Source: Muribaculaceae bacterium (lineage in GTDB: Bacteria > Bacteroidota > Bacteroidia > Bacteroidales > Muribaculaceae). From it: a stretch of 64,000 nucleotides of DNA. The position numbers and the translations under genes are program-made. The stretch covers positions 1 to 64,000 of the forward strand of contig JAFYYU010000017.1 of the NCBI GenBank assembly GCA_017557425.1. Reading direction: 5' to 3'. Positions 45,244 through 62,558 of the stretch are shown here, piece after piece. The notes under the pieces were generated by a model that saw nothing but the letters and a program-made list of their open reading frames with translations, was not told the DNA's origin and did no database searches. Positions within the stretch are counted from its first letter, which is position 1. The number at the start of each line of letters is the position of its first letter.

Positions 45244-45275
45244 TTTGGTCGTTAGATAAGTTTTATGTATATTTG
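45244..45275 (+). promoter_or_regulatory. Promoter of the nuo-atp operon
   Basis: TTTG (45244-45247), a 20-base spacer and TATATTTG (45268-45275) match the consensus exactly. The predicted start near 45282 leaves a leader of about 120 bases before nuoA. I found no comparable promoter inside the 17-kb operon in the short gaps I checked by eye. Confidence 0.85.
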
Positions 45276-45289
45276 CACCGTATTTAGGG

Positions 45290-45346
45290 GTTCTACTGCT
45301 TTGCTTTACGTGCGCGTGCGTGCGTAAGGTGTTGTGTAGTAGGAAC
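45290..45346 (+). promoter_or_regulatory. Leader hairpin of the nuo-atp operon
   Basis: The leader can fold with outer arms GTTCTACT/AGTA-g-GAAC (one bulge) and inner arms CTTTACG (45304-45310)/CGTAAGG (45323-45329) around a TGCGCGTGCGTG loop. No T-run follows, so it may affect RNA stability or translation rather than end transcription. No known riboswitch class is recognised. Confidence 0.5.
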
Positions 45347-45405
45347 TTTGGATGCGCCAGTGTTTAAAACCTGCCAAAAATTCAACCAAAATACTAACAT
45401 CATTT

Positions 45406-45780
45406 ATGGATTTATCAATTTTCGGAGTACAGAGCACGACGATGGCGATTACGGCGGCGTTGACCGGTGTGTTGCTGGTAGTCGGCGCCCTGGTTATCGC
45501 GTGGCTGGTTGGCCCGCGTAGCTACACTAAAAAGAAAGGCGAACCGTTTGAGTGCGGTATCCCCACCCGAGGCGACTCTATGGCCCAGTACCATGTGGGC
45601 TATTACCTGTTTGCCATCCTGTTCCTGATGTTTGACGTGGAGACGGTCTTCCTGTTCCCGTGGGCAACCATCTGCAAGAACATCGGCAGCCAGGCGCTGC
45701 TTGCCGTGGGCACTTTCCTTGTTATTCTGGTTTTAGGTCTGGCTTATGCCTGGAAGAAAGGAGCGTTGAGATGGAAGTAA
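45406..45780 (+). CDS. nuoA: NADH-quinone oxidoreductase subunit A
   Basis: This 124-residue membrane subunit of complex I has three helices and the conserved loop FECGIPTRGDS, followed by FDVETVFLFPWA. It links the membrane arm to the quinone-binding module. I chose ATG 45406; upstream in-frame sequence lies in the leader. It overlaps nuoB by 10 bases. Confidence 0.95.
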   Translation: MDLSIFGVQSTTMAITAALTGVLLVVGALVIAWLVGPRSYTKKKGEPFECGIPTRGDSMAQYHVGYYLFAILFLMFDVETVFLFPWATICKNIGSQALLAVGTFLVILVLGLAYAWKKGALRWK

Positions 45781-46370
45781 AAATCAAGTCGATGAAGCAT
45801 GAAGACTTCAAGGACAACGAATATATCGATAACCTGGTAGAGCAATTGCGTGCTGGCGGCACCAACATCATCGTGGGCAAGCTGGACCAGCTGATGAACT
45901 GGGGCGTGAGCAACTCGTTGTGGCCGCTGTGTTTCGGCACCAGCTGCTGCGCCATCGAGTTCATGTGCCTGGGCGCCGCGCGCTACGATATGGCGCGTTA
46001 CGGCTTCGAGGTAGCCCGCAACAGCCCCCGCCAAGCCGACTACATCATGTGCCAGGGTACCATCAACTACCGCATGGCCCCCGCACTGAAACGTCTGTAC
46101 GAGCAGATGGCCGAGCCCAAGTACGTTATTGCCTGCGGCTCGTGTACCGTTAGCGGCGGTCCCTTCAAGAACAGCTACTGCGTGGTCAAGGGTGTTGACG
46201 AGATCATCCCCGTTGACGTTTACCTGCCCGGCTGCCCGCCGCGTCCCGAGGCCTTCTTCTATGCCCTGATGCAGCTGCAGCGCAAGATCAAGGTGCAGAA
46301 GTACTTTGGCGGCGTGAACCGCAAGGAGAAACTGGACAACCTGCAGTACTTGCCTGAGGAGTCCAAATAA
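45771..46370 (+). CDS. nuoB: NADH-quinone oxidoreductase subunit B
   Basis: The 199-residue subunit carries the N2 iron-sulfur cluster, the last electron carrier before quinone. The ligands are seen as the paired cysteines in GTSCCAIEF, the Cys in GSCTVSGGP and the Cys in LPGCPPRPE. Start ATG 45771 lies inside the end of nuoA, which implies coupled translation. Confidence 0.96.
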   Translation: MEVKIKSMKHEDFKDNEYIDNLVEQLRAGGTNIIVGKLDQLMNWGVSNSLWPLCFGTSCCAIEFMCLGAARYDMARYGFEVARNSPRQADYIMCQGTINYRMAPALKRLYEQMAEPKYVIACGSCTVSGGPFKNSYCVVKGVDEIIPVDVYLPGCPPRPEAFFYALMQLQRKIKVQKYFGGVNRKEKLDNLQYLPEESK

Positions 46371-46395
46371 ATAACCCGATAAAATCCATTCATTT

Positions 46396-48030
46396 ATGGC
46401 AGATATAGAGAACAAAATCATCCAGTTGTGCCCCCAGGCCCAAGTTGACACCACCGGCGAGTTCCCGCTAGTGACCGTTGATGACGCGCAGTGGCACGAC
46501 TTGGCCCGCGCCCTCAAGACCCAGTTGCACTATGACGTGCTGAGCGCCGTGGTCGGCATGGACTGGACCGAAGCCCTGGGCTGCGTATATTACCTGACCA
46601 ACACCAGCACGCATGAGCTGCTGCACGTCAAGGTCGCCACTACCGACCGCGAGAATCCTCGCCTGCACTCGGTATGTGACCTGTGGCCCGTTGCCAACTT
46701 CCAGGAGCGCGAGGTGTATGACTTCTTCGGCATCGTGTTCATCGGCCATCCCGACATGCGCCGCATGTTCTTGCGCACCGACTGGGTAGGTTACCCCCTG
46801 CGCAAGGATTACGACCCCGCAACCAATCCCCTGCGTCTCGAGGACGAGACCAACGAGGACTACACCTGCCGCTGGGTTGAGGACGAGAACGGCAAGGTCA
46901 CGAAAGTGGACGGCAAGGTCTTTGAGGACGATGAGTATGTTGTCAACGTGGGCCCGCAGCACCCGTCAACCCACGGTGTGATGCGTTATCGCGCCAGCAT
47001 TGACGGCGAGGTGGTCAAGAAGATAGACGTCGTGAGCGGATATATCCACCGCGGCATCGAGAAGATGTGTGAGGACCTGACCTATCCCCAGATGCTCCTG
47101 TACACCGAGCGCATGGACTACATGGCCGCCCACATCAACCGCCACTGCATGTGCATGTGTGTGGAGAAGGCCCTCGGCCTGGAGGTTCCCCGCCGCGCCG
47201 AGCTCATCCGCCTAATGATGGACGAGCTGATGCGTCTTTCCTCCCACTTGTTGAGCTACGGCTGCTTGACTATGGACCAGGGAGCCACGACGGCGTTCTT
47301 CTACGGTTTCCGTGAACGCGAATTGATTTATGATATCTTTGACCGCACGTGCGGCGCCCGCATGTCGATGAGCTACAGCACCATTGGCGGTGTGGTTGCC
47401 GATGTGCACGAGGACTTCATCAAGGATGTGCGCCACGCGTGTGACGTGATTGAGAAGAGCCTCAAGGAATACCACAAGCTGTTTACCGGCAACGTCATCG
47501 CCGTGAACCGCATGACGGGAGTGGGCATCTTGACCAAGCAGCAGGCCATCGACTACGATATCACCGGTCCTTCGGGCCGCGCCAGCGGCTGGCACTGCGA
47601 CGTGCGCAAGACCAACCCCTACTCGCTGTACAACGAGTTCGACTTCGACGAGATTACCTATGAGAACGGTGACTCGATGGACCGCTACATGGTCCGCATG
47701 AAGGAGATGGAAGAGAGCATCAAGATTCTGCGCCAGGCCTGCGACAAGCTCGAGGTTGAGGGCATTCAGGGCGAATACATCGCTCCCAAGGTGCCCAAGA
47801 TGATGAAGCTGCCCGCCGGACACTGGTACCAGCAGGTAGAGGCCAGCCGTGGCGCCTTTGGCGTGTACATCGAGAGTGACGGCAACACCAAGCCCGTGCG
47901 CGTCCACTTCCAGTCGCCATGCTTCAACCTGGTTGGTGTGGTTGACCTGACGTGCCGTGACAACCTGATTGCCGACCTGATCACCATCACGGCGTCGCTC
48001 GACTTCGTCATCCCCGATATCGACCGCTAA
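46396..48030 (+). CDS. nuoCD: NADH-quinone oxidoreductase fused subunit CD
   Basis: This 544-residue fusion joins NuoC (about residues 1-165, with the motif REVYDFFGIVFIGHPD) to NuoD (from about 180, with VGPQHPSTHGV). NuoD forms the quinone-reduction site with NuoB. Such fusions occur in several groups, including Bacteroidota and E. coli. The next gene is nuoH; the nuoE, nuoF and nuoG genes that usually follow are absent. Confidence 0.96.
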   Translation: MADIENKIIQLCPQAQVDTTGEFPLVTVDDAQWHDLARALKTQLHYDVLSAVVGMDWTEALGCVYYLTNTSTHELLHVKVATTDRENPRLHSVCDLWPVANFQEREVYDFFGIVFIGHPDMRRMFLRTDWVGYPLRKDYDPATNPLRLEDETNEDYTCRWVEDENGKVTKVDGKVFEDDEYVVNVGPQHPSTHGVMRYRASIDGEVVKKIDVVSGYIHRGIEKMCEDLTYPQMLLYTERMDYMAAHINRHCMCMCVEKALGLEVPRRAELIRLMMDELMRLSSHLLSYGCLTMDQGATTAFFYGFRERELIYDIFDRTCGARMSMSYSTIGGVVADVHEDFIKDVRHACDVIEKSLKEYHKLFTGNVIAVNRMTGVGILTKQQAIDYDITGPSGRASGWHCDVRKTNPYSLYNEFDFDEITYENGDSMDRYMVRMKEMEESIKILRQACDKLEVEGIQGEYIAPKVPKMMKLPAGHWYQQVEASRGAFGVYIESDGNTKPVRVHFQSPCFNLVGVVDLTCRDNLIADLITITASLDFVIPDIDR

Positions 48031-48082
48031 AAAGCAACGAGTTAATCAAAACGAACAAAACCACTAAAAAAGGAAACGAGAT

Positions 48083-49165
48083 ATGTTTGACTTCGGAATA
48101 GTCACGAAATGGTTGGATGACTGGATGAACGGCTTCATGCCCGGCTGGTTGACCACTACAATCGAATGTGTGCTGGTGGCCGTAGGCCTGCTGGTCGCTT
48201 ATTCGCTCATCGCCATGTTCTACATTTTCTACGAGCGCAAGGTGTGCGGTTGGATCCAGTGCCGTCTGGGCCCGATGCGCGTGGGCAAGTGGGGCTTGCT
48301 CCAGGTGTTTGCCGACGTAATCAAGATTCTCCAAAAGGAGCTGATTACCCTGTGGCACACCGACAAGTTCCTGTTCAAGCTGGCGCCGTATCTGGTGCTT
48401 ATCGCTTCGATGCTTACCTTCGCCTGTCTGCCTTGGGGCAAGGGCCTGCAAGTCATCGACATGAACATCGGCGTATTTTTCATTATCGCCGTGTCGTCGA
48501 TTGGCGTGCTTGGCATCCTGCTCGCCGGTTGGGCCAGTAACAGCAAATACACGCTTATCGGTGCAATGCGCAGTGGCGCCCAGATGATCAGCTACGAGCT
48601 GTCGTGCGGCATCTCCATCCTGACCATCGTGTGCCTGGCGGGCACCATGTCGATCACAGGCATCGTCGAGGCGCAGCAAGACGGCTGGTTCCTGTTCAAG
48701 GGCCACCTGCCCGCCATTTTGGCGTTCATTATCTATATGATTGCCGCCAATGCCGAGAACAACCGCGGCCCGTTTGACCTCCCCGAGGCCGAGCATGAGT
48801 TGACCGCCGGTTACCACACCGAGTATTCCGGTATCCACTTCGGATTCTTCTATCTGGCCGAGTACCTGAACCTGTTCATCGTGTCGGGCATCGCCACGCT
48901 CCTGTTCCTGGGCGGCTGGATGCCGTTGCACATCCCCGGCTGGCAAGGCTTCAACCACATCATGGACTACATTCCCAGTGTGGTATGGTTCCTGGGCAAG
49001 GCTTTCTTCATCACGTTCATCTTCTTCTGGATCCGCTGGTCGTTCCCGCGCGTGCGCATCGACCAGATGCTGGCATTGGAGTGGCGTTACTTAATGCCCA
49101 TCGGCCTGGTCAACCTGGTTGTGATGGCAATTATCGTTACCCAAGGCTGGTATTTCGGTTCCTAA
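48083..49165 (+). CDS. nuoH: NADH-quinone oxidoreductase subunit H
   Basis: The 360-residue membrane subunit has about eight helices and the quinone-channel signatures [14 protein letters not shown] and [17 protein letters not shown]. It ties the quinone site to the proton-pumping arm. The gene is followed after 60 bases by atpD instead of nuoI. That short gap has no hairpin with a T-run and no exact promoter match. Confidence 0.96.
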
Positions 49166-49213
49166 TGGTGAGTCCCTATACATTATATTATAAAAACAAC
49201 CAACATCACATAA

Positions 49214-50725
<1,512 letters not shown>

Positions 50726-50762
50726 TTCACCGTTTAGTGACTTTTCATTATAACTAGATAAA

Positions 50763-50996
50763 ATGACACTCAAAATCATATCGGCTGAACAGATTGAGTT
50801 TGAAGGCACCGTCGAGCAAGTGACGCTCCCTGGCGTCATGGGCATGTTCCAGGTGCTCAAGAACCACGCCGCCCTCATTGCCGCCCTCACGGCAGGACGC
50901 ATGAGCTATGTGACCGATGGCGAGACCGTGGAACGCGATATCCACGGTGGTGTGGCCGATGTAAAGGATAATGTGGTGTCGGTTTGCTTATATTGA
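50763..50996 (+). CDS. atpC: F-type ATP synthase subunit epsilon, short form
   Basis: Only 77 residues long, it contains the N-terminal beta-sandwich (LKIISAEQIEFEG, TLPGVMGMFQVLKNHAALIA) and ends with VSVCLY. The C-terminal helical domain of the usual 130-140-residue protein is absent. In other bacteria that domain inhibits ATP hydrolysis. Short epsilon subunits are usual in Bacteroidota, so it is probably intact rather than truncated. Confidence 0.93.
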   Translation: MTLKIISAEQIEFEGTVEQVTLPGVMGMFQVLKNHAALIAALTAGRMSYVTDGETVERDIHGGVADVKDNVVSVCLY

Positions 50997-50998
50997 TT

Positions 50999-52075
50999 AT
51001 GAAAAGCAAGATCATAATAGCAATTGTCGCGCTCGTGATTGTCGCGCTGATGGGATGGGGTTACTACAGCACCGCCCAGCATCGCGCCCACGGCCACACC
51101 AGCGAGCTGAACCCCAAGGAGACCATCTTTGAGCACTTGGGCGACGCTTACGGCTGGGAAGTGCCGTTCAATCACAACGCGCGCATCCCGTTGCCCATTA
51201 TCGTGTGGGGGCAGGACGGCTTGCACTGCTTCATGAGCAACCGCATCACTGGAGGCGAGACCTATGAGGGCTTCAAGATCTCAACCAGCGAGAAATACCA
51301 CGGCAAAGTGGTTCAGGTGATGGAAGACGGCTCAGAGGTGCGTCCCTGGGACTTCTCCATTACCAAAAACGTCGCTGGACTCTTCATTGCGGCTCTGCTG
51401 GTCATCTGGATGGTCTTCTCGCTCAAGCGCTGGTATGCCCGCAACAATCTCAAGGCCCCGCGTGGTGCCAAGGGCTTCCTGGAGCTGGTGGTGGACTTCG
51501 TCTATGGCGACACCATCCGTCCCATCCTGGGCAAGCATGCGCCCAAGTATGCTCCCTACCTGCTCACAGCGTTCTTCTTCATCCTGACGATGAACCTGCT
51601 GGGACTGATCGTCATCTTCCCCGGTGGCGCCAACCTGACGGGTAACATCGCCGTGACACTGGTACTTGCCCTGTTGACGTTCCTGATCACCACCTTCAGC
51701 GGCACCCGCGAATACTGGAAGGAAATCCTGTGGCCCGAGGTCCCCATGGCCCTCAAGTGCCCTGTTCCCATGATGCAGCTCATCGAGGTGTTGGGTATGT
51801 TCACCAAGCCATTGGCCCTGATGGTCCGTCTCTTTGCCAACATGATGAGCGGCCACATGGTGGTTCTGGTGCTCGTACTGCTCATCTTCATTTTCACCAG
51901 CCTGTTCGGTGTGGGTGTGGGCATCGGCACAAGCATCTTCTCGGTAGCATTCACCCTGTTCATGCTCTTGCTCGATGTGCTGGTGAGCTTCATCCAGGCG
52001 TATGTGTTCACTATCCTGAGTACCATTTTCATCTCGATGGCGCTTGTGGAGCCTCATCACAGCGAGGCAAAATAA
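50999..52075 (+). CDS. atpB: F-type ATP synthase subunit a
   Basis: This 358-residue membrane subunit forms the proton half-channels. The essential arginine lies in PLALMVRLFANMMSGHM, equivalent to Arg210 of E. coli. An N-terminal membrane helix and an extracytoplasmic stretch of roughly 100 residues before the second helix make it much longer than E. coli subunit a (271 residues), as seen in Bacteroidota. Start ATG 50999 lies two bases after the atpC stop. Small extra genes sometimes found here (atpI or a hypothetical) are absent. Confidence 0.94.
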   Translation: MKSKIIIAIVALVIVALMGWGYYSTAQHRAHGHTSELNPKETIFEHLGDAYGWEVPFNHNARIPLPIIVWGQDGLHCFMSNRITGGETYEGFKISTSEKYHGKVVQVMEDGSEVRPWDFSITKNVAGLFIAALLVIWMVFSLKRWYARNNLKAPRGAKGFLELVVDFVYGDTIRPILGKHAPKYAPYLLTAFFFILTMNLLGLIVIFPGGANLTGNIAVTLVLALLTFLITTFSGTREYWKEILWPEVPMALKCPVPMMQLIEVLGMFTKPLALMVRLFANMMSGHMVVLVLVLLIFIFTSLFGVGVGIGTSIFSVAFTLFMLLLDVLVSFIQAYVFTILSTIFISMALVEPHHSEAK

Positions 52076-52117
52076 TAACCAGACATTTACAACAAAAAAC
52101 AAAATATTAACAATTAA

Positions 52118-52369
<252 letters not shown>

Positions 52370-52384
52370 TTCTCCCGGGTTCAG

Positions 52385-52882
52385 ATGGAACTTTTCACGC
52401 CTGAATTTGGCCTGGTGTTTTGGATGTTCTTGGCATTCCTGTGCCTGTACTTCATCCTTGCCAAGTTTGCATGGCCCTACATCATCAAGAGTATGGAGGA
52501 ACGTGCCGACAAGATTGACAAGGGTGTGGCCTACTACCAGGAAGCCGAAGCACGTCTGCAAAACGCCCAGGCCGAAGCGGACAAGTTGATTGCCCAAGCC
52601 CATAATGAGCAGGCCGACATCCTGCGAGAGGCCGCCAAGATGCGCAACGAGCTCATCGAGAATGCGCGTGGCGAGGCTGCCGACGAAGCCAAGAAGGTGA
52701 CCGAAGCAGCTCAAGTGTCGCTGGAACAGGCCCGCAAGGAGGCCGAGAAGCAACTGCGCACCGAGGTGGGTGACCTGGCGCTGCAAATCGCCGAGAAAGT
52801 CATCCGCCGCAACATCGCCAACGATGATGCCCAGCGTGCGCTTGTTGAACAATATCTGAGTGAGGTTGAGACTAAAAACTAA
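52385..52882 (+). CDS. atpF: F-type ATP synthase subunit b
   Basis: The 165-residue subunit has one N-terminal membrane helix (GLVFWMFLAFLCLYFILAKF) and a long Ala/Glu/Lys-rich helix that forms the peripheral stalk. It holds F1 against rotation together with subunit delta. Only one b-type gene is present, so the stalk should be a homodimer. Confidence 0.95.
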   Translation: MELFTPEFGLVFWMFLAFLCLYFILAKFAWPYIIKSMEERADKIDKGVAYYQEAEARLQNAQAEADKLIAQAHNEQADILREAAKMRNELIENARGEAADEAKKVTEAAQVSLEQARKEAEKQLRTEVGDLALQIAEKVIRRNIANDDAQRALVEQYLSEVETKN

Positions 52883-52888
52883 TGCGAT

Positions 52889-53431
52889 ATGAGTGACGGA
52901 CTGATTCCACGCCGATACGCCAAAGCGCTGTACAAGTACGCCGTCGAGAATGGCGACTCCCAGGAGATTTATGAGCTCTTAAAGGGCCTGAGTTTCCGCT
53001 ACACCGCTATCGACGAACTCAAGCGCGCTGTACTCAATCCAGAAATCTCTGACGAGGACAAGGGATCCTATATGCTGAAACTCGCCGGTGGCAAGCCAGG
53101 CAGTTCGCTGGACAAGTTCCTGCTGCTGTGTGTGCGCAACAACCGCGCCGAATACCTGCAGAAGATCTCCCTTGCCTATGTCGATCTCTACCGCGAGGCC
53201 CACGAGATCGCCCATGTGGTCATCACCACGGCGGCTCCCCTGCCCGAGGCCGAGGTCAATGCCATTATCGACATCGTGAAGAAGCGCCTGGGCGCCATGA
53301 CCCTCGAGATAGAGCAGGTCATCGACCCCGAGCTGATCGGCGGTTTCACTGTCAAGATCAACGACCTGGTGCTTGACGCGTCGGTAAAGAGAGAATTGAA
53401 CGAATTGCGATTACAACTGCAAAAGAAATAG
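52889..53431 (+). CDS. atpH: F-type ATP synthase subunit delta
   Basis: This 180-residue subunit starts IPRRYAKALYKYAVENG, the typical OSCP/delta opening, and ends with VIDPELIGGFTVKINDLVLDASV. It links the top of F1 to the b stalk. It is six bases after atpF and nine bases before atpA, in tight order. Confidence 0.95.
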   Translation: MSDGLIPRRYAKALYKYAVENGDSQEIYELLKGLSFRYTAIDELKRAVLNPEISDEDKGSYMLKLAGGKPGSSLDKFLLLCVRNNRAEYLQKISLAYVDLYREAHEIAHVVITTAAPLPEAEVNAIIDIVKKRLGAMTLEIEQVIDPELIGGFTVKINDLVLDASVKRELNELRLQLQKK

Positions 53432-53440
53432 AACAACACG

Positions 53441-55036
53441 ATGATTAATCCCAGTGAAATATCCGATATACTGAAACAGCAGCTCGTCGAGGACATCGCC
53501 AAGCGGCAGGTAGCCTTTGAGGAAGAAGGCACCGTGCTCGAGGTGGGCGACGGCGTGGCTCACGCCTACGGCCTGCACAATGTCGAGGCCAATGAACTCG
53601 TACGGTTCGAAAACGGCGTGACCGGCGTGGCCATGAACCTCGAGGAGAGCGACGTGGGCATCATCCTACTCGATGAGGTGGACACCGTGACCGAGAACAT
53701 GAAGGTTCGACGCACCGGTGAAATCGCATCGATCGAGGTGGGTGAAGGACTGCTGGGCCGCGTAATCAACGTCCTGGCCAAGCCCATCGACGGCAAGGGA
53801 CCCATCGAGGGTGACAAGCTGCGCCTGCCTCTGGAGCGCAAGGCGCCTGGCGTCATTTTCCGTCAGCCGGTGAACCAACCGTTGCAGACGGGTCTCAAGG
53901 CCATTGACTCGATGATTCCCATCGGCCGCGGCCAGCGTGAGCTCATCATCGGTGACCGCCAGATCGGCAAGACCGCCATCGCCGTGGACACCATCATCAA
54001 CCAGCGTGAGGGATACGAGACGGGCAAACCCGTTTACTGCATCTACGTTGCCATCGGCCAGAAAGCCTCGACCGTGGCAGCCCTTGTCAACAAGCTCGAG
54101 GAGAGCGGCGCCCTGCCCTACACCATCGTTGTGGCCGCCACGGCAGCCGACTCGGCATCGATGCGCTATTATGCCCCCTTTGCGGGTGCTGCCATCGGCG
54201 AGTACTTCCGCGACACCGGCCGTGACGCACTTGTTATCTATGACGACCTTTCAAAGCACGCTGTCGCCTACCGCGAGATCTCGCTGATTCTCAAGCGCCC
54301 CTCGGGCCGTGAGGCTTATCCCGGCGATATCTTCTACCTGCACAGCCGCCTGCTGGAACGTGCCGCCAAGATTAACGAGAACCAGGATGTGGCCAGCGTG
54401 ATGAACGACCTGCCCGAGCCGCTCAAGCCCATTGTCAAGGGCGGTGGCTCATTGACGGCGCTTCCCATCATCGAGACGCAGGCCGGCGACGTGAGCGCCT
54501 ATATCCCCACCAACGTGATTTCGATTACCGACGGTCAGATTTATCTGGAGTCGGCCCTGTTCAACTCGGGAATCCGTCCTGCGGTGAACGTGGGTATCTC
54601 GGTATCGCGTGTTGGTGGTAACGCCCAGATCAAGTGCATGAAGAAGGTGGCAGGTACACTCAAGATTGCCCAGGCACAGTACCGTGAACTCGAAGCCTTC
54701 ACCAAGTTTGGCGGTGACATCGACCCCGTTACCGCGCGCACCATCGACACGGGCCGGAAGAACGAGCGTCTGCTTGTGCAGCCGCAGTACACACCCATGA
54801 AGGTCGAGGAGCAGGTTGCCATCATCTACTGCGGTGTGAACGGCCTGTTGCGCGACGTGCCTCTTGACAAGGTAGCCGAGTTTGAAAAACTGTTTATCAA
54901 TTACCTGCGCGGCAAGCACCAGAGCGATGTGCTCGACGTGCTGCGCACCGGCAAAATCGATGATGACATCATGTCCAAACTCAAGGATGCCGCTGCCGAG
55001 GTCGCTGCTAAATATGTTGAAGCTCCTGCCAGTTAA
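53441..55036 (+). CDS. atpA: F-type ATP synthase subunit alpha
   Basis: The 531-residue noncatalytic nucleotide-binding subunit of F1 has Walker [11 protein letters not shown] and the strand [19 protein letters not shown]. The C-terminal part shows the conserved Arg region [23 protein letters not shown]. It alternates with beta in the F1 hexamer. Confidence 0.98.
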
Positions 55037-55058
55037 TCCTACAATCTAAGTTCGCAAG

Positions 55059-55943
55059 ATGTCAACATTAAGAGAACTCAAGACGCGAATAGGTTCAGTA
55101 GCCTCCACGCAGAAGACGACGAGCGCCATGAAGATGATCAGCTCGTCCAAGATGCGCAAGGCTACCGGCCAGTTGCAGCGCTTGTCCCCTTACCGCCACA
55201 TGGTGCAGCATGTCATCAGCCACCTGCTTGTCACCGACCAGCAATTTGACTCGCCGCTCATCGTCGATCGCGATGTACAGCGTGTGGCGCTGGTGGTGTT
55301 CGGCAGCGATGACGGACTGTGCGGCGGCTTCAACGTCAACATCTTCAAGCAGTTGCTTGGCACTATCACCGAGGTTCGCAAGGAATACGGCGCCCAAGTG
55401 GGCATCACCGTCATACCTGTGGGCAAAAAGATGACCAAAGCGGTCCAGAAGATTGCCGGCAAAGACATCCAGATGGAGCGCGTCGCCCTGAACACCCGCA
55501 GTGACAGCGAGGACCTTTACGCCTTCACCGATTTGATGAAGACCCGCTTCCTGGAGCACACGTTTGACCGCGTGGAGATGCTGTACATGCACTTTATCTC
55601 GACCGGTAAGCAGGTGTTTACCCGCGAACAGCTGCTGCCGGTGAGCTACCAGGGCCTGGCTGACAATGTTGACCCGCGTGCCGCCAACAGCCCCTGCCTG
55701 TTTGAGCCCGACGCCAACACCATCTTCAACACCGTGCTGCCGCTGCACATCAAGTCAATGCTCCAGGATGTGTTCATCCAGAGCACAGCCAGTGAGCAGA
55801 GCGCACGCGTGATGGCGATGCAGGCAGCGAGCGACAACGCCAAGGAATTGCTCGACGAGCTGCAACTGGAGTACAACAAACTGCGTCAGCAGGGCATCAC
55901 CACCGAGCTGCTCGACATCCTGGGTGGCCAGGTGGAACGTTGA
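55059..55943 (+). CDS. atpG: F-type ATP synthase subunit gamma
   Basis: The 294-residue rotor shaft subunit has the N-terminal helix LRELKTRIGSVASTQKTT and the C-terminal SARVMAMQAASDNAKELL, both conserved. It is the last atp gene. nuoI follows after 36 bases without a terminator, so transcription should pass on. Confidence 0.97.
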   Translation: MSTLRELKTRIGSVASTQKTTSAMKMISSSKMRKATGQLQRLSPYRHMVQHVISHLLVTDQQFDSPLIVDRDVQRVALVVFGSDDGLCGGFNVNIFKQLLGTITEVRKEYGAQVGITVIPVGKKMTKAVQKIAGKDIQMERVALNTRSDSEDLYAFTDLMKTRFLEHTFDRVEMLYMHFISTGKQVFTREQLLPVSYQGLADNVDPRAANSPCLFEPDANTIFNTVLPLHIKSMLQDVFIQSTASEQSARVMAMQAASDNAKELLDELQLEYNKLRQQGITTELLDILGGQVER

Positions 55944-55979
55944 CGCTAAATGTAAAGAAAACAAGAAAAGACTAAGAAT

Positions 55980-56543
55980 ATGAGCATTAAGGAGTATTTC
56001 GTCTCAATCTTTAAAGGCTTTTACAGCCTGATCAAGGGCATGGAGGTTACCGGCAAGGAACTGGTGACCCCCAAGGTGACCGAGCAGTATCCCGAGAACC
56101 GCGCCACGCTGGAAATTCCCGAGCGGTTCAGGGCCACGCTGGAACTCATCTACGATGACAACGGCACCCACAAGTGCATTGCTTGTGGCAGCTGCGAGCG
56201 TAATTGCCCCAACCAAACTATCAGCATCACCAAGCGCATGGTGGACTTGCCCGACGGCAAGAAGAAAATGAAGCTCGACAAGTACACGTATGACTTGGGC
56301 AGCTGCACCTTCTGCGGTCTGTGTGTTCAGGTATGTCCCACCAATGCCATCAGGTTCAGCAACGACTTTGAGCAAGCGGTATTCACTCGCGAGAAGCTTG
56401 TCAAGCAGCTTAACTACCTGCCCGAGAAGGACGAGCCCGCTCCTTCACCCGCCGTCAAGCCCGCGGCCCCAGCGCTCGAGAAGCCTGCTGCCGCCCCTGC
56501 CGCTGACGAGACCAAACAAGAAACTAAAGAAAATAAGGAATAA
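55980..56543 (+). CDS. nuoI: NADH-quinone oxidoreductase subunit I
   Basis: The 187-residue ferredoxin-like subunit carries two [4Fe-4S] clusters, with ligand runs CIACGSCERNCPN and CTFCGLCVQVCPTNAI. These pass electrons to NuoB. The last 45 residues are rich in Ala, Pro, Lys and Glu, a tail longer than in E. coli. In a complex without NuoEFG this subunit is the likely entry point for electrons. It shares one base with nuoJ. Confidence 0.96.
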   Translation: MSIKEYFVSIFKGFYSLIKGMEVTGKELVTPKVTEQYPENRATLEIPERFRATLELIYDDNGTHKCIACGSCERNCPNQTISITKRMVDLPDGKKKMKLDKYTYDLGSCTFCGLCVQVCPTNAIRFSNDFEQAVFTREKLVKQLNYLPEKDEPAPSPAVKPAAPALEKPAAAPAADETKQETKENKE

Positions 56544-57058
56544 TGGAATCAGTAGGTAACATCATTTTGTATTTTATCGTTGCGATCGCCATCATCGTCT
56601 TCTCGGTGCTGACGGTTACCACGCGCAAGATTTTGCGCTCCGCAACCTATCTGCTGTTTGTGCTGTTTGCCACAGCCATCATCTACTTCCAGATGGACTA
56701 TCAGTTCCTGGGAGCGGTACAGATCGCCGTGTATGCCGGCGGCATTCTGGTGCTGTTTGTGTTTGCCATCATGCTGACACAGCAGCCCGGGAAGAGTGCC
56801 GAGGCCTTGGCTACGCATCGCCGCTGGCTGGGACTGACGGCAGCGCTGGCAGGAGTCGCCGTGTGCGGCTATGCCCTGTTCAGCTATGCCGGCTTTGGAG
56901 GCAGGCTGCTCAGCAGCGGGGTGGACGTCAATATGGAGAAGATAGGCCAGTTCTTGTTGAGTACCGACAAGTTCGGCTATCTGTTGCCTTTTGAGGCCAT
57001 CAGTGTGTTGTTATTGGCTTGTATCATTGGAGGTGTGGTTATTGCCCGTCGCCGCTAA
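56543..57058 (+). CDS. nuoJ: NADH-quinone oxidoreductase subunit J
   Basis: This 171-residue membrane subunit has five helices, with the conserved ATYLLFVLFATAIIYF and QIAVYAGGILVLFVFAIML, the pi-bulge region of helix 3. It works with NuoA, NuoK and NuoH at the base of the membrane arm. The start codon overlaps the nuoI stop (TAATG). Confidence 0.95.
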   Translation: MESVGNIILYFIVAIAIIVFSVLTVTTRKILRSATYLLFVLFATAIIYFQMDYQFLGAVQIAVYAGGILVLFVFAIMLTQQPGKSAEALATHRRWLGLTAALAGVAVCGYALFSYAGFGGRLLSSGVDVNMEKIGQFLLSTDKFGYLLPFEAISVLLLACIIGGVVIARRR

Positions 57059-57070
57059 ACATTGAAGATT

Positions 57071-57382
57071 ATGGATTTGACACTGTTTATGTATCTTATT
57101 CCCAGCCTCATCATGTTTGGCTGCGGTGTATATGGTTTCATCACCCGCAAGAACATGATTGCGATCATGATTTCACTGGAGTTGATGCTCAACTCGGTGG
57201 ATATCAACTTTGTGGTGTTTAACCGTTACCTGTTCCCCGGTCAGATGGACGGCATGTTCTTCTCGCTGTTCGCGATAGCCATCGCGGCTGCCGAGACGGC
57301 GCTTGCCCTTGCCATCATCATCAATGTGTTCCGCATTGCCAAGAACGTGGACATCAACCAAATCACTAAACTGAAATTCTAA
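57071..57382 (+). CDS. nuoK: NADH-quinone oxidoreductase subunit K
   Basis: The 103-residue subunit has three helices with the conserved GVYGFITRKNMIAIMISLELMLN region and a second acidic site in AIAAAETALALAIII, both important for proton transfer. I chose ATG 57071; a TTG three codons up is possible. It is five bases from nuoL. Confidence 0.96.
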   Translation: MDLTLFMYLIPSLIMFGCGVYGFITRKNMIAIMISLELMLNSVDINFVVFNRYLFPGQMDGMFFSLFAIAIAAAETALALAIIINVFRIAKNVDINQITKLKF

Positions 57383-57387
57383 CGATT

Positions 57388-59385
57388 ATGCCATTAAGTT
57401 TAGCAATAGTAGTTGTAGCATTACCCCTGCTGATGTTCCTGTTCCTGGGACTCGTCGGGGTGAAAATGGGTAGAAAAATCACGGGTGTGATTGGCGTGCT
57501 GGCGATGCTCGTCGATACCGTCCTTGCCTATGGCGTGGCGCTGACCTATTTCTTCGGCAGCGGTCAAGGCCAAGTGGTGGACGGAGTGCGTCAAGCCGTT
57601 GTTGTTGCCAATCCCGCCTGGTTGTCATTCACCGACACGCTGGTGGTGCGGATGGGTGTCCTGGTTGACCCCATCGCCGCGATGATGCTTGTGGTCATCA
57701 CCACGGTATCGCTGATGGTGCACCTTTACAGCCTCGGGTACATGAGCGACCATGACGGCAACGCTGAGAAGGGATTCCAGCGTTATTATGCCTTCCTGGC
57801 GCTGTTCACGTTCTCGATGCTGGGTCTGGTGGTTGCCACCAACATTTTCCAGATTTTCGTCTTCTTTGAGATGGTGGGTCTGTCATCCTACCTGCTCATT
57901 GGTTTCTATTATTCGACGCCTGCCGCCAACCATGCCAACAAGAAGGCCTTTATCGTGACCCGTCTGGCCGACCTGTTCTTCCTGTTGGGTATCATGATAT
58001 TGAGCTATTACACTGGCACCTTCGACTTCGACAAGCTGGTCTTCGGGCCCACGATGTCTGGTAGCCTGGAAACGGCCCAGAGCGCCATCAGCACTGCCGG
58101 AGGCGCTACCTTCATGGGCTGCTCGGTGATGGCATGGGCGCTGACCTTCATCTTCATCGGCGGTGCCGGTAAGAGTGCGATGTACCCGTTGCACATCTGG
58201 CTGCCCGATGCCATGGAGGGCCCGACGCCCGTCTCGGCGTTGATCCATGCCGCTACGATGGTTGTTGCCGGTGTATTCCTGGTAGCAAGGCTGTTCCCGC
58301 TGTATGTACTCGTTCAGGGTGCAATGAACATCATCCTGGTTGTTGGCGCGTTCACGGCATTCTATGCCGCCGCCATCGCTTGCACCCAGAGCGATATCAA
58401 ACGTGCGCTGGCCTTCTCGACCATCTCGCAGATCGCCTTCATGATGACTTCATTGGCTGTATCGTCTAACCAGAACGCTCTCATTGAGATTCATGAGGGT
58501 TACGGCCTGGGCTACATGGCGTCGATGTTCCACCTGTTCACCCACGCTATGTTCAAGGCGTTGCTCTTCCTGTGCGCCGGTGCCATCATCCACGCTGTTC
58601 ACAGCAATGAGAACAGCAAGATGCACGGCCTGCACAAGTACATGCCCATCACCAGCATCTGCTTCTTCATCGGCTGTCTGGCGATTGCCGGTATTCCCCC
58701 GTTCGCCGGTTTCTGGAGTAAGGACGAAATCCTTGTCGCCGCTTACCAGCGCGGCCTGGGTTGGGGCATCTGGATGTCGATGGTGGCCGGTATGACCGCC
58801 TTCTACATGTTCCGCATCTATTACCTCATCTTCTTCTGGAAGAAACATGAGGTACACGACGAACATCACAAGCCCAAGGACCAGCCCTGGACGATGACGC
58901 TGCCGTTGATCATCCTGGCTGCCATCTCGTGTGTTGCGGGCTTCGTTCCCTTCCACGACCTGGTTACCTGGGACGGCAAGGCGCTGCACACTGCCCTCGA
59001 CATGAAAGTGGCTGGCACGAGCGTCGTCATCGCTTTGTTGGGCATTGCCCTGGCCACAGTGATGTACTACAAGGAGAACAAGTTGCCCGAACGCATGGCC
59101 AATGCGATGCGTGGCCTCTGGACGGCCAGCTACAAGCGCTTCTACATGGACGAGCTCTACCAGTTCATCACCCACAAGGTGATTTTCCAGGGCATCTGTG
59201 TGCCCATTGCCTGGTTTGACCGCCACATCATCGACGGTTTTATGAACCTGATGGCCGATGCGACCAACTCGCTGTCATTCGGCATCCGTCGCATGCAGTC
59301 GGGCAGCATCCAGGCCTATGTGTATGTGTATCTGCTGGGAGCCCTGCTGCTTGGCGTAATCACCATGATATGTGTAATCTTCTAA
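57388..59385 (+). CDS. nuoL: NADH-quinone oxidoreductase subunit L
   Basis: This 665-residue antiporter-like subunit is at the far end of the membrane arm. It shows FFEMVGLSSYLLIG with the key Glu, GAGKSAMYPLHIWLPDAMEGPTP with the key Lys, and HAATMVVAGVFL. A long C-terminal amphipathic region and final membrane helix fit the lateral arm typical of NuoL. Confidence 0.97.
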   Translation: MPLSLAIVVVALPLLMFLFLGLVGVKMGRKITGVIGVLAMLVDTVLAYGVALTYFFGSGQGQVVDGVRQAVVVANPAWLSFTDTLVVRMGVLVDPIAAMMLVVITTVSLMVHLYSLGYMSDHDGNAEKGFQRYYAFLALFTFSMLGLVVATNIFQIFVFFEMVGLSSYLLIGFYYSTPAANHANKKAFIVTRLADLFFLLGIMILSYYTGTFDFDKLVFGPTMSGSLETAQSAISTAGGATFMGCSVMAWALTFIFIGGAGKSAMYPLHIWLPDAMEGPTPVSALIHAATMVVAGVFLVARLFPLYVLVQGAMNIILVVGAFTAFYAAAIACTQSDIKRALAFSTISQIAFMMTSLAVSSNQNALIEIHEGYGLGYMASMFHLFTHAMFKALLFLCAGAIIHAVHSNENSKMHGLHKYMPITSICFFIGCLAIAGIPPFAGFWSKDEILVAAYQRGLGWGIWMSMVAGMTAFYMFRIYYLIFFWKKHEVHDEHHKPKDQPWTMTLPLIILAAISCVAGFVPFHDLVTWDGKALHTALDMKVAGTSVVIALLGIALATVMYYKENKLPERMANAMRGLWTASYKRFYMDELYQFITHKVIFQGICVPIAWFDRHIIDGFMNLMADATNSLSFGIRRMQSGSIQAYVYVYLLGALLLGVITMICVIF

Positions 59386-59419
59386 CCAACGGTCTAACAA
59401 AATAGAAAGGATATATCAA

Positions 59420-60952
59420 ATGGAACTTTTCAATAATATACTGATTTACTTTGTGATCGTGCCTCTGCTGACGCTTGGAGGCCTGGCTCTTTGCCGCAAC
59501 CGCGGCATCAAGGCCATCAGGACCGTTGCAGTCATCGGCGCCAGCGTGCTGATGGTACTGGCCATCTGGTTGGTGAGCATCTTCTTGAGCGCTCGTGCCG
59601 GTGGAGACACCAGTGAGATGATCCTGCGCAGCGACGTGCTGTGGTATGCCCCGTTCAATGTCCACCTGGCATTGGGCGTGGACGGCGTGAGCGTCGTGAT
59701 GATATTACTGTCGGCATTCATTGTGTTCGCCGGTGTGTTCGCCTCGTGGAAGATGAACCCGCTACCCAAGCAGTTCTTCATGTGGTTCTTCCTGTTGTCC
59801 ACGGGTGTGTTCGGCTTCTTCATCTCGATCGACCTGTTCACGATGTTCATGTTCTATGAGGTCGCTCTGATTCCCATGTACCTGCTGATTGGCGTGTGGG
59901 GCAGCGGCAACAAGAACTACAGCGCGATGAAACTGACCCTGATGCTGATGGGTGGCTCAGCCTTCCTGATGCTCGGCCTGATCGGTATCTATTTCCACTC
60001 GGCTCCCGAGGGTCAGCCGCTGACGATGAACATTCTGGACATCGCCCATAACAATGCCATCCCGCACAGCTGGCAATACCTGCTGTTCCCGCTGACGTTT
60101 GTCGGCTTTGGCGTGCTGGGTGCCATGTTCCCGTTCCACACATGGTCTCCCGACGGTCATGCCTCGGCGCCCACGGCGGTGTCGATGCTCCACGCCGGTG
60201 TACTGATGAAGCTTGGTGGTTACGGCTGCTTCCGCATCGCCATCTACCTGATGCCTTTCGCAGCCAACCAATTGGCATGGATTTTCCTGCTGCTGACGGG
60301 CTTCAGCATCGTCTATGGTGCGTTGAGCGCCTGTGTGCAGACCGACCTCAAGTACATCAACGCTTACTCGTCGGTTAGTCACTGCGGTATGGTGCTGTTT
60401 GCCATCCTGATGTTCAACACCACTGCGATGACCGGTGCCGTGCTTCAGATGCTCTCTCACGGTCTGATGACGGCCCTGTTCTTTGCCCTCATCGGTATGA
60501 TCTATGGCCGCACCCACACGCGTGACATCCGTGACATGGGCGGTATGATGCACATCATGCCTTACTTGGGCGTGGGATATGTGATTGCCGGTCTGGCATC
60601 GTTGGGTCTGCCGTTCCTGAGCGGTTTTGCTGCCGAGATGACCATTTTCATGGGCTCGTTCCAGCACACCGACCTGTTCCACCGCGTACTCACCATCATG
60701 GCGACCACCTCGATTGTGGTGACAGCGGTTTACATCCTGCGCGTTGTCGCCAAGCTGCTCTTTGGCGAGGTACAGGATGAGCACCACCGCTCGCTGACCG
60801 ATGCCACCTGGGAGGAGCGCCTCTCGACTGCCACACTGATTCTTGCCGTGGCTGCCATCGGTTGCTTCCCCAACTTCTTTATTAACATCATCAGCAGCAG
60901 TTTTGACCCCGTCGTTAAGGCGTTGCAGGCTGCTCTGCCCAATGTGTTGTGA
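59420..60952 (+). CDS. nuoM: NADH-quinone oxidoreductase subunit M
   Basis: The 510-residue antiporter-like subunit has the key Glu in FMFYEVALIPMYLLIG, FPFHTWSPDGHASAPTAVSM and the histidine-rich region typical of NuoM. It provides one of the proton paths in the membrane arm. Confidence 0.97.
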   Translation: MELFNNILIYFVIVPLLTLGGLALCRNRGIKAIRTVAVIGASVLMVLAIWLVSIFLSARAGGDTSEMILRSDVLWYAPFNVHLALGVDGVSVVMILLSAFIVFAGVFASWKMNPLPKQFFMWFFLLSTGVFGFFISIDLFTMFMFYEVALIPMYLLIGVWGSGNKNYSAMKLTLMLMGGSAFLMLGLIGIYFHSAPEGQPLTMNILDIAHNNAIPHSWQYLLFPLTFVGFGVLGAMFPFHTWSPDGHASAPTAVSMLHAGVLMKLGGYGCFRIAIYLMPFAANQLAWIFLLLTGFSIVYGALSACVQTDLKYINAYSSVSHCGMVLFAILMFNTTAMTGAVLQMLSHGLMTALFFALIGMIYGRTHTRDIRDMGGMMHIMPYLGVGYVIAGLASLGLPFLSGFAAEMTIFMGSFQHTDLFHRVLTIMATTSIVVTAVYILRVVAKLLFGEVQDEHHRSLTDATWEERLSTATLILAVAAIGCFPNFFINIISSSFDPVVKALQAALPNVL

Positions 60953-60990
60953 TGAAAGTGTTTAACCTGATAAAAATTGCATAAAAAGAT

Positions 60991-62460
60991 ATGATGGATT
61001 ATTCACAGTTCTTATTGATGCCGCAGGAGATAGGCCTGTTGCTGGTTTTCCTGCTAGTTTTCATCTATGACACTTTCATGCCAGAGCGCTCACAGCGTTA
61101 TATGCCTATTTTCTCGGTCATCATGATGGCGCTCTACACGATATACTGCTTCTGTTTTCCCGCTGGCGTGGGTGAGGCCTTCGGCGGCATGTTCGAGTCC
61201 AACGCTCCCACCTGGGTGATGAAGAACATCCTCAATGTGGGTGTCGTGCTGGTGCTCCTGCAGGCCGTGAAATGGACCAACAATGACTTCGTGAGCGTTC
61301 GCCGCGGCGAGTTCTACGAGTTGATCCTGCTGACATTGCTGGGCATGTTCCTGATGATATCGGCCCGCCACTTCCTGCTGTTCGTCATCGGTCTGGAGAC
61401 GGCGTCACTGCCCATCGCTGCCCTGGCAGCGTTTGAGAAACGCTACTATGAGTCCCACGAGGCTGCTGCGAAGTATATCTTCACCGCCATCTTCTCGTCG
61501 GCGATTTTCCTATTGGGAATCTCGTTCGTCTATGGCATGAGTGGCTCATTGTACTTCAAGGATATCGCCACCACGCTCATCGGCAACCGCTCTGCACTGC
61601 TGATTGCCTCCCTGGCGTTTGTCATCGCCGGTGTGGGTTTCAAGCTGTCGCTTGTTCCCTTCCACCAGTGGACTGCCGACGTTTACCAGGGCGCACCCAC
61701 TGCTGTTACCAGCTACCTGTCGGTTATCAGCAAGGGCGCTGCGGCGTTCTCGTTCCTGGTGATTCTGGTGCAGGTGTTCGGCTCGGCCTACTCCCAGGTG
61801 TGGGAGTGGATGCTCTATGCCATCATCGTGCTCACCATCACTATCGGTAACCTGTTCGCCATCCGTCAGCGCAACCTCAAGCGCTTCCTGGCGTTCTCGT
61901 CAATCTCGCAGGCCGGTTACATCATGCTCGGCATCATCGCCGTGAACGTGATGGGCATGTCCTCGATGATTTACTATGTGCTGGTTTACATCTTCAGCAA
62001 CCTCGCCGCCTTCGGCGTGATTGCCGCTATTGAGCGTCAGACCGGCAAGGTGACGATGGACGACTACAACGGTCTGTTCAAGACCAATCCCTGGCTGGCC
62101 TTCACGATGATGCTGGCGATGTTCTCGCTGGGCGGTATTCCCCCGTTTGCAGGCTTCTTCAGCAAGTTCTTCATCTTTGTGGGCGCATGCCACCAGGGTA
62201 CGGTAGCCATCTACATCCTCGTGCTCATCGCGTTGATCAACACCATCATCTCGTTGTACTACTACCTGCTGGTGGTTAAGGCGATGTTCCTGCGCCAGGA
62301 CGATTGTGTGATTCCCACCATCAAGAGCCACTGGACCGAGCGTACAGGCCTCATCCTGTGCACGCTGGGCATCATCTTCATCGGCTTAATCAGCTGCATC
62401 TACGCTTACATTAACGGCACCGTTGACGCCATTGGCGCCATGTTTGCTGCCATTCAGTAA
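60991..62460 (+). CDS. nuoN: NADH-quinone oxidoreductase subunit N
   Basis: This 489-residue antiporter-like subunit contains FVIGLETASLPIAALAAFEK with the key Glu, and SLVPFHQWTADVYQGAPT. It is the last gene of the operon and is followed by a clear terminator. ATG 60991 and 60994 are both possible starts. Confidence 0.97.
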   Translation: MMDYSQFLLMPQEIGLLLVFLLVFIYDTFMPERSQRYMPIFSVIMMALYTIYCFCFPAGVGEAFGGMFESNAPTWVMKNILNVGVVLVLLQAVKWTNNDFVSVRRGEFYELILLTLLGMFLMISARHFLLFVIGLETASLPIAALAAFEKRYYESHEAAAKYIFTAIFSSAIFLLGISFVYGMSGSLYFKDIATTLIGNRSALLIASLAFVIAGVGFKLSLVPFHQWTADVYQGAPTAVTSYLSVISKGAAAFSFLVILVQVFGSAYSQVWEWMLYAIIVLTITIGNLFAIRQRNLKRFLAFSSISQAGYIMLGIIAVNVMGMSSMIYYVLVYIFSNLAAFGVIAAIERQTGKVTMDDYNGLFKTNPWLAFTMMLAMFSLGGIPPFAGFFSKFFIFVGACHQGTVAIYILVLIALINTIISLYYYLLVVKAMFLRQDDCVIPTIKSHWTERTGLILCTLGIIFIGLISCIYAYINGTVDAIGAMFAAIQ

Positions 62461-62526
62461 GAACCCATAGACTTCTGATATCATTTAGCATAACCAAATG
62501 TAGAATTGAGCATTCTTCAATTCATG

Positions 62527-62558
62527 GAGTATCGCGGACTACCGCGATACTCTTTTTT
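62527..62558 (+). terminator. Terminator of the nuo-atp operon
   Basis: Perfect arms GAGTATCGCGG and CCGCGATACTC around ACTA are followed by six T. It lies 66 bases past the nuoN stop and is the first strong rho-independent terminator seen after 45,244. Confidence 0.95.

Follow-up and report, generated by a model that had tools for sequence, protein, structure and literature searches.

In the Bacteroidales genome stretch analyzed here, the operon for the F-type ATP synthase (atp) is embedded within the operon for respiratory complex I (nuo). The stretch, hereafter the window, comprises 64,000 nucleotides of a Muribaculaceae bacterium (GenBank assembly GCA_017557425.1, contig JAFYYU010000017.1, positions 1 to 64,000 of the forward strand). 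Eighteen genes run on the plus strand from 45,352 to 62,460 in the order nuoA-B-CD-H, atpD-C-B-E-F-H-A-G, nuoI-J-K-L-M-N, with intergenic gaps of -10 to 60 bases, the largest of which separates nuoH from atpD. This arrangement had been claimed in an original prediction made from the letters of the window, and both the gene calls and the NCBIfam searches agree with it: for all 18 products the top NCBIfam match is the expected subunit family, with 14 of the 18 scoring above the curated cut-off and NuoA, NuoI, NuoJ and AtpC matching the right families with scores below it. Based on the distribution of this layout, on protein phylogenies and on the signals at its ends, we consider it probable that the locus is a combined complex I-ATP synthase operon of single origin which, in the organism of the window, most likely yields a single transcript.

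Distribution and origin of the joined block

Because the genome from which the window comes is incomplete (24 contigs, 85% complete), relatives were examined. In the family sample, NuoH is present in 89 of 89 genomes, that of the window included. The AtpD search in the family covered 80 of the 85 genomes previously untested; in 79 of these, atpD lies behind nuoH on the same strand, with 21-176 bases between the match ends, and in the 80th (G337) the AtpD match begins at a contig end. The order-wide sample consisted of 295 genomes, of which 107 have a NuoH match down to 50% identity and 80 were given to the AtpD search. The two genes are adjacent in 22 of these 80 (the window's own genome included) and non-adjacent in 52, namely on different contigs in 49 and far apart on one contig in three; in the remaining six, the search found no AtpD at its threshold. 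The 22 adjacent genomes carry seven family labels, f1 (Muribaculaceae), f109 (Barnesiella), f28 (the Ca. Caccoplasma group), f88 (the Ca. Gallibacteroides group), f22, f60 and f68, whereas the 52 non-adjacent genomes carry 36 others, and no single family shows both states. Thus, the joined layout extends to six families beyond Muribaculaceae among those sampled and to none of the other 36, which rules out a layout common to the whole order; nuo and atp lie apart in the other families tested, in keeping with the original prediction, which names separate loci as the Bacteroides arrangement.

The complete 18-gene order was recovered in 18 of the 20 adjacent genomes that were fetched. The two exceptions are G278, which ends at a contig end, and G235, which is interrupted by a run of N after nuoI, so that its apparent loss of nuoJ-N is uninformative; in G316, a genus-mate of G235, the end of nuoCD is followed by the genes nuoH to nuoN in the expected order. 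In the separate-type nuo loci fetched, nuoI stands behind nuoH in 10 of 10.

A pattern scan of named genomes returned at least 119 stretches, 80 of which were taken as loci. Among the named-genome matches listed, nuoH precedes atpD in 75 of these 80; the other five are four chance matches (L091, L106, L108 and L111) and L077, which is cut off ahead of atpD. For two of the 75, L084 and L099, the aligned piece of AtpD starts 1.2-1.6 kb later, and the pattern itself covers the junction. The names among the 75 listed include Muribaculaceae, Muribaculum, Duncaniella, Heminiphilus faecis, Barnesiella, Ca. Limisoma, Ca. Caccoplasma and Ca. Gallibacteroides; a metagenome-assembled genome labelled Barnesiella (L098) is nearest to Muribaculaceae, which shows that the name of a record can mislead. 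The far end of the atp genes is present in 18 of the 80 listed loci, with nuoI next after atpG in nine, the locus ending at most 81 bases further on in eight, and a chance match in one. Outside the order, 261 genomes of the phylum have a NuoH match; 80 were given to the AtpD search, 79 matched, and among the matches listed for these 80, read by eye, none has nuoH directly 5′ of atpD. Six phylum members belonging to other classes (G503, G410, G453, G614, G603 and G516) have nuoH and atpD approximately 7-11 kb apart on opposite strands.

Phylogenetic trees were built by a quick method for 30 genomes, 21 of them joined, from NuoH+NuoCD and from AtpD+AtpA. In both trees the 21 joined genomes fall on one side of a branch, with Shimodaira-Hasegawa-like approximate likelihood ratio test (SH-aLRT) support of 99 and 96, respectively, and two of three earlier FastTree runs, those on the atp proteins and on all proteins combined, recovered the joined group. 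These results point to one likely origin of the joined block. The atp operon would have come to sit between nuoH and nuoI once, in an ancestor shared by Muribaculaceae, Barnesiella and a number of related families; since then, the block would have been retained as a unit. The nearest separate group is f106, where NuoH was found in 18 of 38 genomes and nuoH-atpD adjacency in none of these 18. Both genes lie on one contig in nine of the 18 and, as read by eye, approximately 18-45 kb apart in four (G720, G106, G712 and G716), so that their nearness may predate the joining.

Predicted transcription signals and the atpG-nuoI gap

The signals expected of a single transcription unit are found at the two ends of the block. 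The motif TTTG-N20-TATATTTG, which we take to be the promoter consensus of Bacteroidales, is matched at 10 of 10 positions in front of nuoA, and a 12-pair hairpin followed by a T run stands behind nuoN (Table 1). At the junctions nuoH-atpD and atpG-nuoI of the window, the best promoter matches reach 7 and 6 of 10 positions, respectively, and no stable hairpin is predicted. The exact promoter match, the terminator-like hairpin and the lack of either signal at the junctions, all features of the original prediction, are thus recovered, and they support its view of one unit running from one promoter to one terminator. Across the 21 joined genomes, matches at 9 or more of the 10 positions, with expectations from simple shuffles, occur 5′ of nuoA in 12 (250 bases searched; 1.5 expected), at the nuoH-atpD junction in two (150 bases; 0.85 expected) and at the atpG-nuoI junction in none (150 bases; 0.2 expected). 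With 250 bases searched at every site the counts remain 12, 2 and 0; with 150 bases before nuoA the first becomes 8. A hairpin lies at most 120 bases 3′ of nuoN in 16 of 19 genomes. A scan inside the block for sites of the sigma-70 type, a consensus which is not the Bacteroidales one, gave 25 weak sites against 12.7 expected.

The positions of promoter and terminator, together with the retained block, favor one unit that is kept together. In the organism of the window, transcription would start at the promoter in front of nuoA and end at the terminator behind nuoN, giving one message of approximately 17 kb. The likely gain would be that a pump and the enzyme consuming its gradient are controlled jointly. 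If so, a branch of common gut bacteria ties the making of the proton gradient to its spending and offers a natural test of why most relatives keep the nuo and atp operons apart.

Several observations weigh against a single-origin, single-message operon. A good promoter motif 5′ of nuoA was not found in 9 of the 21 joined genomes. A strong hairpin, defined by a stem of 8 or more pairs of which 4 or more are G-C, occurs in the atpG-nuoI gap of 9 of 21 genomes vs 4 of 329 other junctions, and the T-rich tails of several of these hairpins imply that a partial stop of transcription may occur in those species. Within the window's own genus, six of eight relatives have a predicted gap energy of -10 kcal/mol or lower (two of the six with z above -1), while two relatives and the window itself are bare at this gap. 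As for the single origin, FastTree on five Nuo proteins split the joined genomes and placed G193 beside G278; we attribute this failure to the missing NuoM in G278 and G193, as it is gone with NuoH+NuoCD alone.

With a median of 79 bases, the atpG-nuoI gap is wider than any other in the block. The nine hairpin-bearing gaps all come from f109, f22, f60 and f68, that is, from Barnesiella and three other families; the hairpins (L034, L035, L041-L045, L047 and L048) have 10-21 pairs and are possibly left over from an atp terminator. When both a z of at most -3 and a predicted energy of at most -10 kcal/mol are required, 6 of 18 atpG-nuoI gaps of at least 30 bases qualify vs 1 of 94 gaps at the other junctions. 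Among Muribaculaceae gaps, the second set of which was partly picked from genera already showing structure, 17 of 47 reach -10 kcal/mol, and only 4 of these 17 also have z of -3 or lower. Hairpins behind atpG are found in several separate-operon genomes as well.

An H-type pseudoknot-like element was detected 20-51 bases 5′ of nuoI in several genera of Muribaculaceae, the window's own genus included (L207, L209, L128, L227, L228, L229, L235 and L237; more loosely L234, L238 and L239). Both stems vary among genera with the pairing kept. Under a narrow definition, set post hoc with the cases already seen and with at least 4 of the 8 cases being near relatives, the element occurs in 8 of 68 gaps vs a mean of 0.075 in 40 shuffling rounds and 0.33 expected from background; the same definition gave no match on the antisense strand. 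The looser definition alone proved worthless: it hit a 493-kb background 604 times, with 6.3 expected vs 11 seen. A shuffle test per gap gives p of at most 0.05 in 9 of 44 atpG-nuoI gaps and in 1 of 31 elsewhere. The element was not found in the atpG-nuoI gap of the window. Rfam searches returned no match for the window, none at E up to 0.5 for L207, L209 and L128, and none at gathering scores for seven hairpin-bearing loci.

These gap structures are the core of the alternative under which the block consists of overlapping units: the promoter before nuoA would drive nuoA-atpG, and a partial stop in the gap, RNA processing or translational control would lower or separately tune nuoI-N, the gap perhaps holding a remnant of the original atp terminator. 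The excess of long stems and of strong energies in this gap over other junctions, its width, the hairpins that follow atpG in separate-operon genomes, the foldable gaps of the window's genus and the pseudoknot-like element in some Muribaculaceae all speak for such units. However, the gap of the window has 36 bases and a predicted energy of 0, 30 of the 47 Muribaculaceae gaps are weaker than -10 kcal/mol and only four combine an energy of -10 kcal/mol or lower with a z of at most -3, the stem sequences vary between lineages, and the promoter motif is missing before nuoI in all 21 joined genomes. We judge the overlapping units to be a serious competitor that falls somewhat short of even chances. 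A more elaborate proposal, which can be put forward only tentatively and is rather doubtful as a whole, is a respiratory super-operon of single origin that a clade of gut Bacteroidales would have made into one adjustable unit: the common promoter would act as a joint switch for pump and synthase, and a structured RNA in the gap, either the terminator-like hairpin of Barnesiella and its kin or the undescribed H-type pseudoknot of some Muribaculaceae, would set the output of nuoI-N.

The structured gaps also bear on the ratio of the two enzymes. The original prediction held that the layout would fix the ratio of proton pump to ATP synthase at the transcript level; this part is not supported, given that the structured atpG-nuoI gap of many relatives would let the two halves differ, and a fixed ratio accordingly cannot be assumed for the layout in general. 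Translation, too, has a share in how much of each operon product is made.

Retention of the block

Returning to the combined operon as the preferred reading, its persistence could also reflect neutral inheritance, in which case the insertion would have happened by chance in a single ancestor, would never have been broken up and would have brought no regulatory benefit. The distribution needs only one origin, and the distance of approximately 18-45 kb between nuoH and atpD in four of the 18 NuoH-bearing f106 genomes is one that a local rearrangement could close. Yet, 79 of 80 family members have kept the block whole, although the genes at its flanks are not shared between families. In the flanks compared (ORFs, that is, open reading frames, of at least 100 aa in approximately 10 kb per side, with 1.5 kb on the downstream side of the window), no block-flanking ORF is shared among the window's genome, G331, G292 and G259. 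The combination of an intact block with unshared flanks suggests that the block has been kept together, an argument tempered by the general rarity with which either operon, nuo or atp, is disrupted; on balance, neutral inheritance appears unlikely. A shared ancestral neighborhood was considered and rejected, as, within the stretches compared under the same limits, no ORF lying between or beside the operons in G720, G712 and G106 recurs in the flanks of the joined block. Finally, an assembly or binning artefact, for which only the fragmented and incomplete state of the source genome speaks, is refuted for practical purposes by the same layout in unrelated assemblies, in the one-contig genomes G292, G259 and G352 and in the isolates Heminiphilus faecis and Barnesiella sp. 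An22, so that the layout of the window is not a joining error.

The encoded enzymes

The block contains nuoA, B, CD and H to N, and nuoE, F and G are absent from the locus; as encoded there, complex I is the headless 11-subunit form. None of 31 genomes passes the NuoF cut-off, and some weaker match is present in 26 of the 31. In the window's own, 85% complete genome, the NuoF-like match lies in a 641-aa frame on another contig that scores just below threshold, 494.8 bits vs the cut-off of 558.65 bits and is probably part of another enzyme. In all 21 joined genomes the c subunit reads EGV at its ion-binding Glu, and no sodium-site residues follow the Glu. We take this motif to mark the proton type, and the ATP synthase of the block is thus probably proton-driven. 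The headless complex I and the EGV c subunit together indicate that the block probably pairs a proton pump with a proton-driven synthase. For Prevotella bryantii, a proton-driven synthase has been stated in the part of the source consulted (PMC6560451), and for the headless NUO of Bacteroides fragilis, NADH oxidation is given as not measurable in the corresponding part of PMC7002350.

Table 1. Features of the joined nuo-atp locus in the window.
Feature	Position	Strand	Remarks
Promoter-like site TTTG-N20-TATATTTG	45244..45275	+	10/10 positions of the assumed consensus; 5′ of nuoA
nuoA	45352..45780	+	NCBIfam NuoA families, below cut-off; alternative start ATG 45,406 possible
nuoB	45771..46370	+	NCBIfam
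nuoCD, fused	46396..48030	+	NCBIfam
nuoH	48083..49165	+	NCBIfam
Junction 1, nuoH-atpD, 60 bases	49166..49225	+	No stable hairpin; best promoter match 7/10
atpD (beta)	49226..50725	+	NCBIfam
atpC (epsilon), 77 aa	50763..50996	+	NCBIfam, below cut-off; profile positions 1-76 of 130 only
atpB (subunit a)	50999..52075	+	NCBIfam
atpE (subunit c)	52130..52369	+	NCBIfam; ALIEGV around the ion-binding Glu
atpF (subunit b)	52385..52882	+	NCBIfam
atpH (delta)	52889..53431	+	NCBIfam
atpA (alpha)	53441..55036	+	NCBIfam
atpG (gamma)	55059..55943	+	NCBIfam
Junction 2, atpG-nuoI, 36 bases	55944..55979	+	Bare in the window; structured in many relatives
nuoI, 187 aa, Pro/Ala-rich C-terminal tail	55980..56543	+	NuoI family, just below cut-off
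nuoJ	56543..57058	+	NCBIfam, below cut-off
nuoK	57071..57382	+	NCBIfam
nuoL	57388..59385	+	NCBIfam
nuoM	59420..60952	+	NCBIfam
nuoN	60991..62460	+	NCBIfam
Intrinsic-terminator-like hairpin	62526..62553	+	12-pair stem and T run; 3′ of nuoN

Some subunits show peculiarities of their own. In three gap-free Muribaculaceae sequences (56427-56543 in the window; also L037 and L039), NuoI carries a long tail rich in Pro, Ala and Lys and measures 180-283 aa; the NuoI proteins of the 17 joined genomes compared from other families have 148-162 aa. AtpC has 77 or 79 aa in all 21 joined genomes and seems to lack its C-terminal helices. Between atpC and atpB, a hydrophobic ORF of approximately 120-140 aa is present in five of six separate atp operons outside f106 (L058, L060, L062, L064 and L068); none was seen in L066, in the joined block or in two f106 genomes.

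Comparison with known systems

The original prediction presented the layout as new. A search that was thin on subscription journals yielded a single source that states it, PMC4936053 (Ormerod et al., 2016), where, in the part seen, the ATP synthase of the S24-7 family (Muribaculaceae; ‘Ca. Homeothermaceae’) is reported as integrated in a complex I locus without NuoEFG. The locus of the window is the same in that the atp genes lie within the complex I locus, NuoEFG is missing and the genome belongs to Muribaculaceae; the layout is accordingly known, and novelty cannot be claimed for it. The account in PMC4936053, as far as seen, is a single sentence that gives neither gene order nor junctions nor the layout in Barnesiella or other families. 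What the present analysis adds is how far the layout extends, that it likely arose once and which structures lie at the junction; the same search found no print source for the spread over six further families, the origin or the structures.

Among the other known systems, the headless 11-subunit complex I reported for Bacteroides fragilis and for Prevotella (PMC7002350, PMC6560451) is similar in consisting of nuo genes without nuoEFG. Unlike in the window, the B. fragilis nuo operon (BF638R_0850-0841) is described without atp genes in the portions of these sources that were available. The order of the atp genes in the window, beta-epsilon-a-c-b-delta-alpha-gamma, is the same as that given for Bacteroides and Prevotella in the accessible part of PMC5709465, where, however, these genes are described as a unit of their own and complex I is not discussed.

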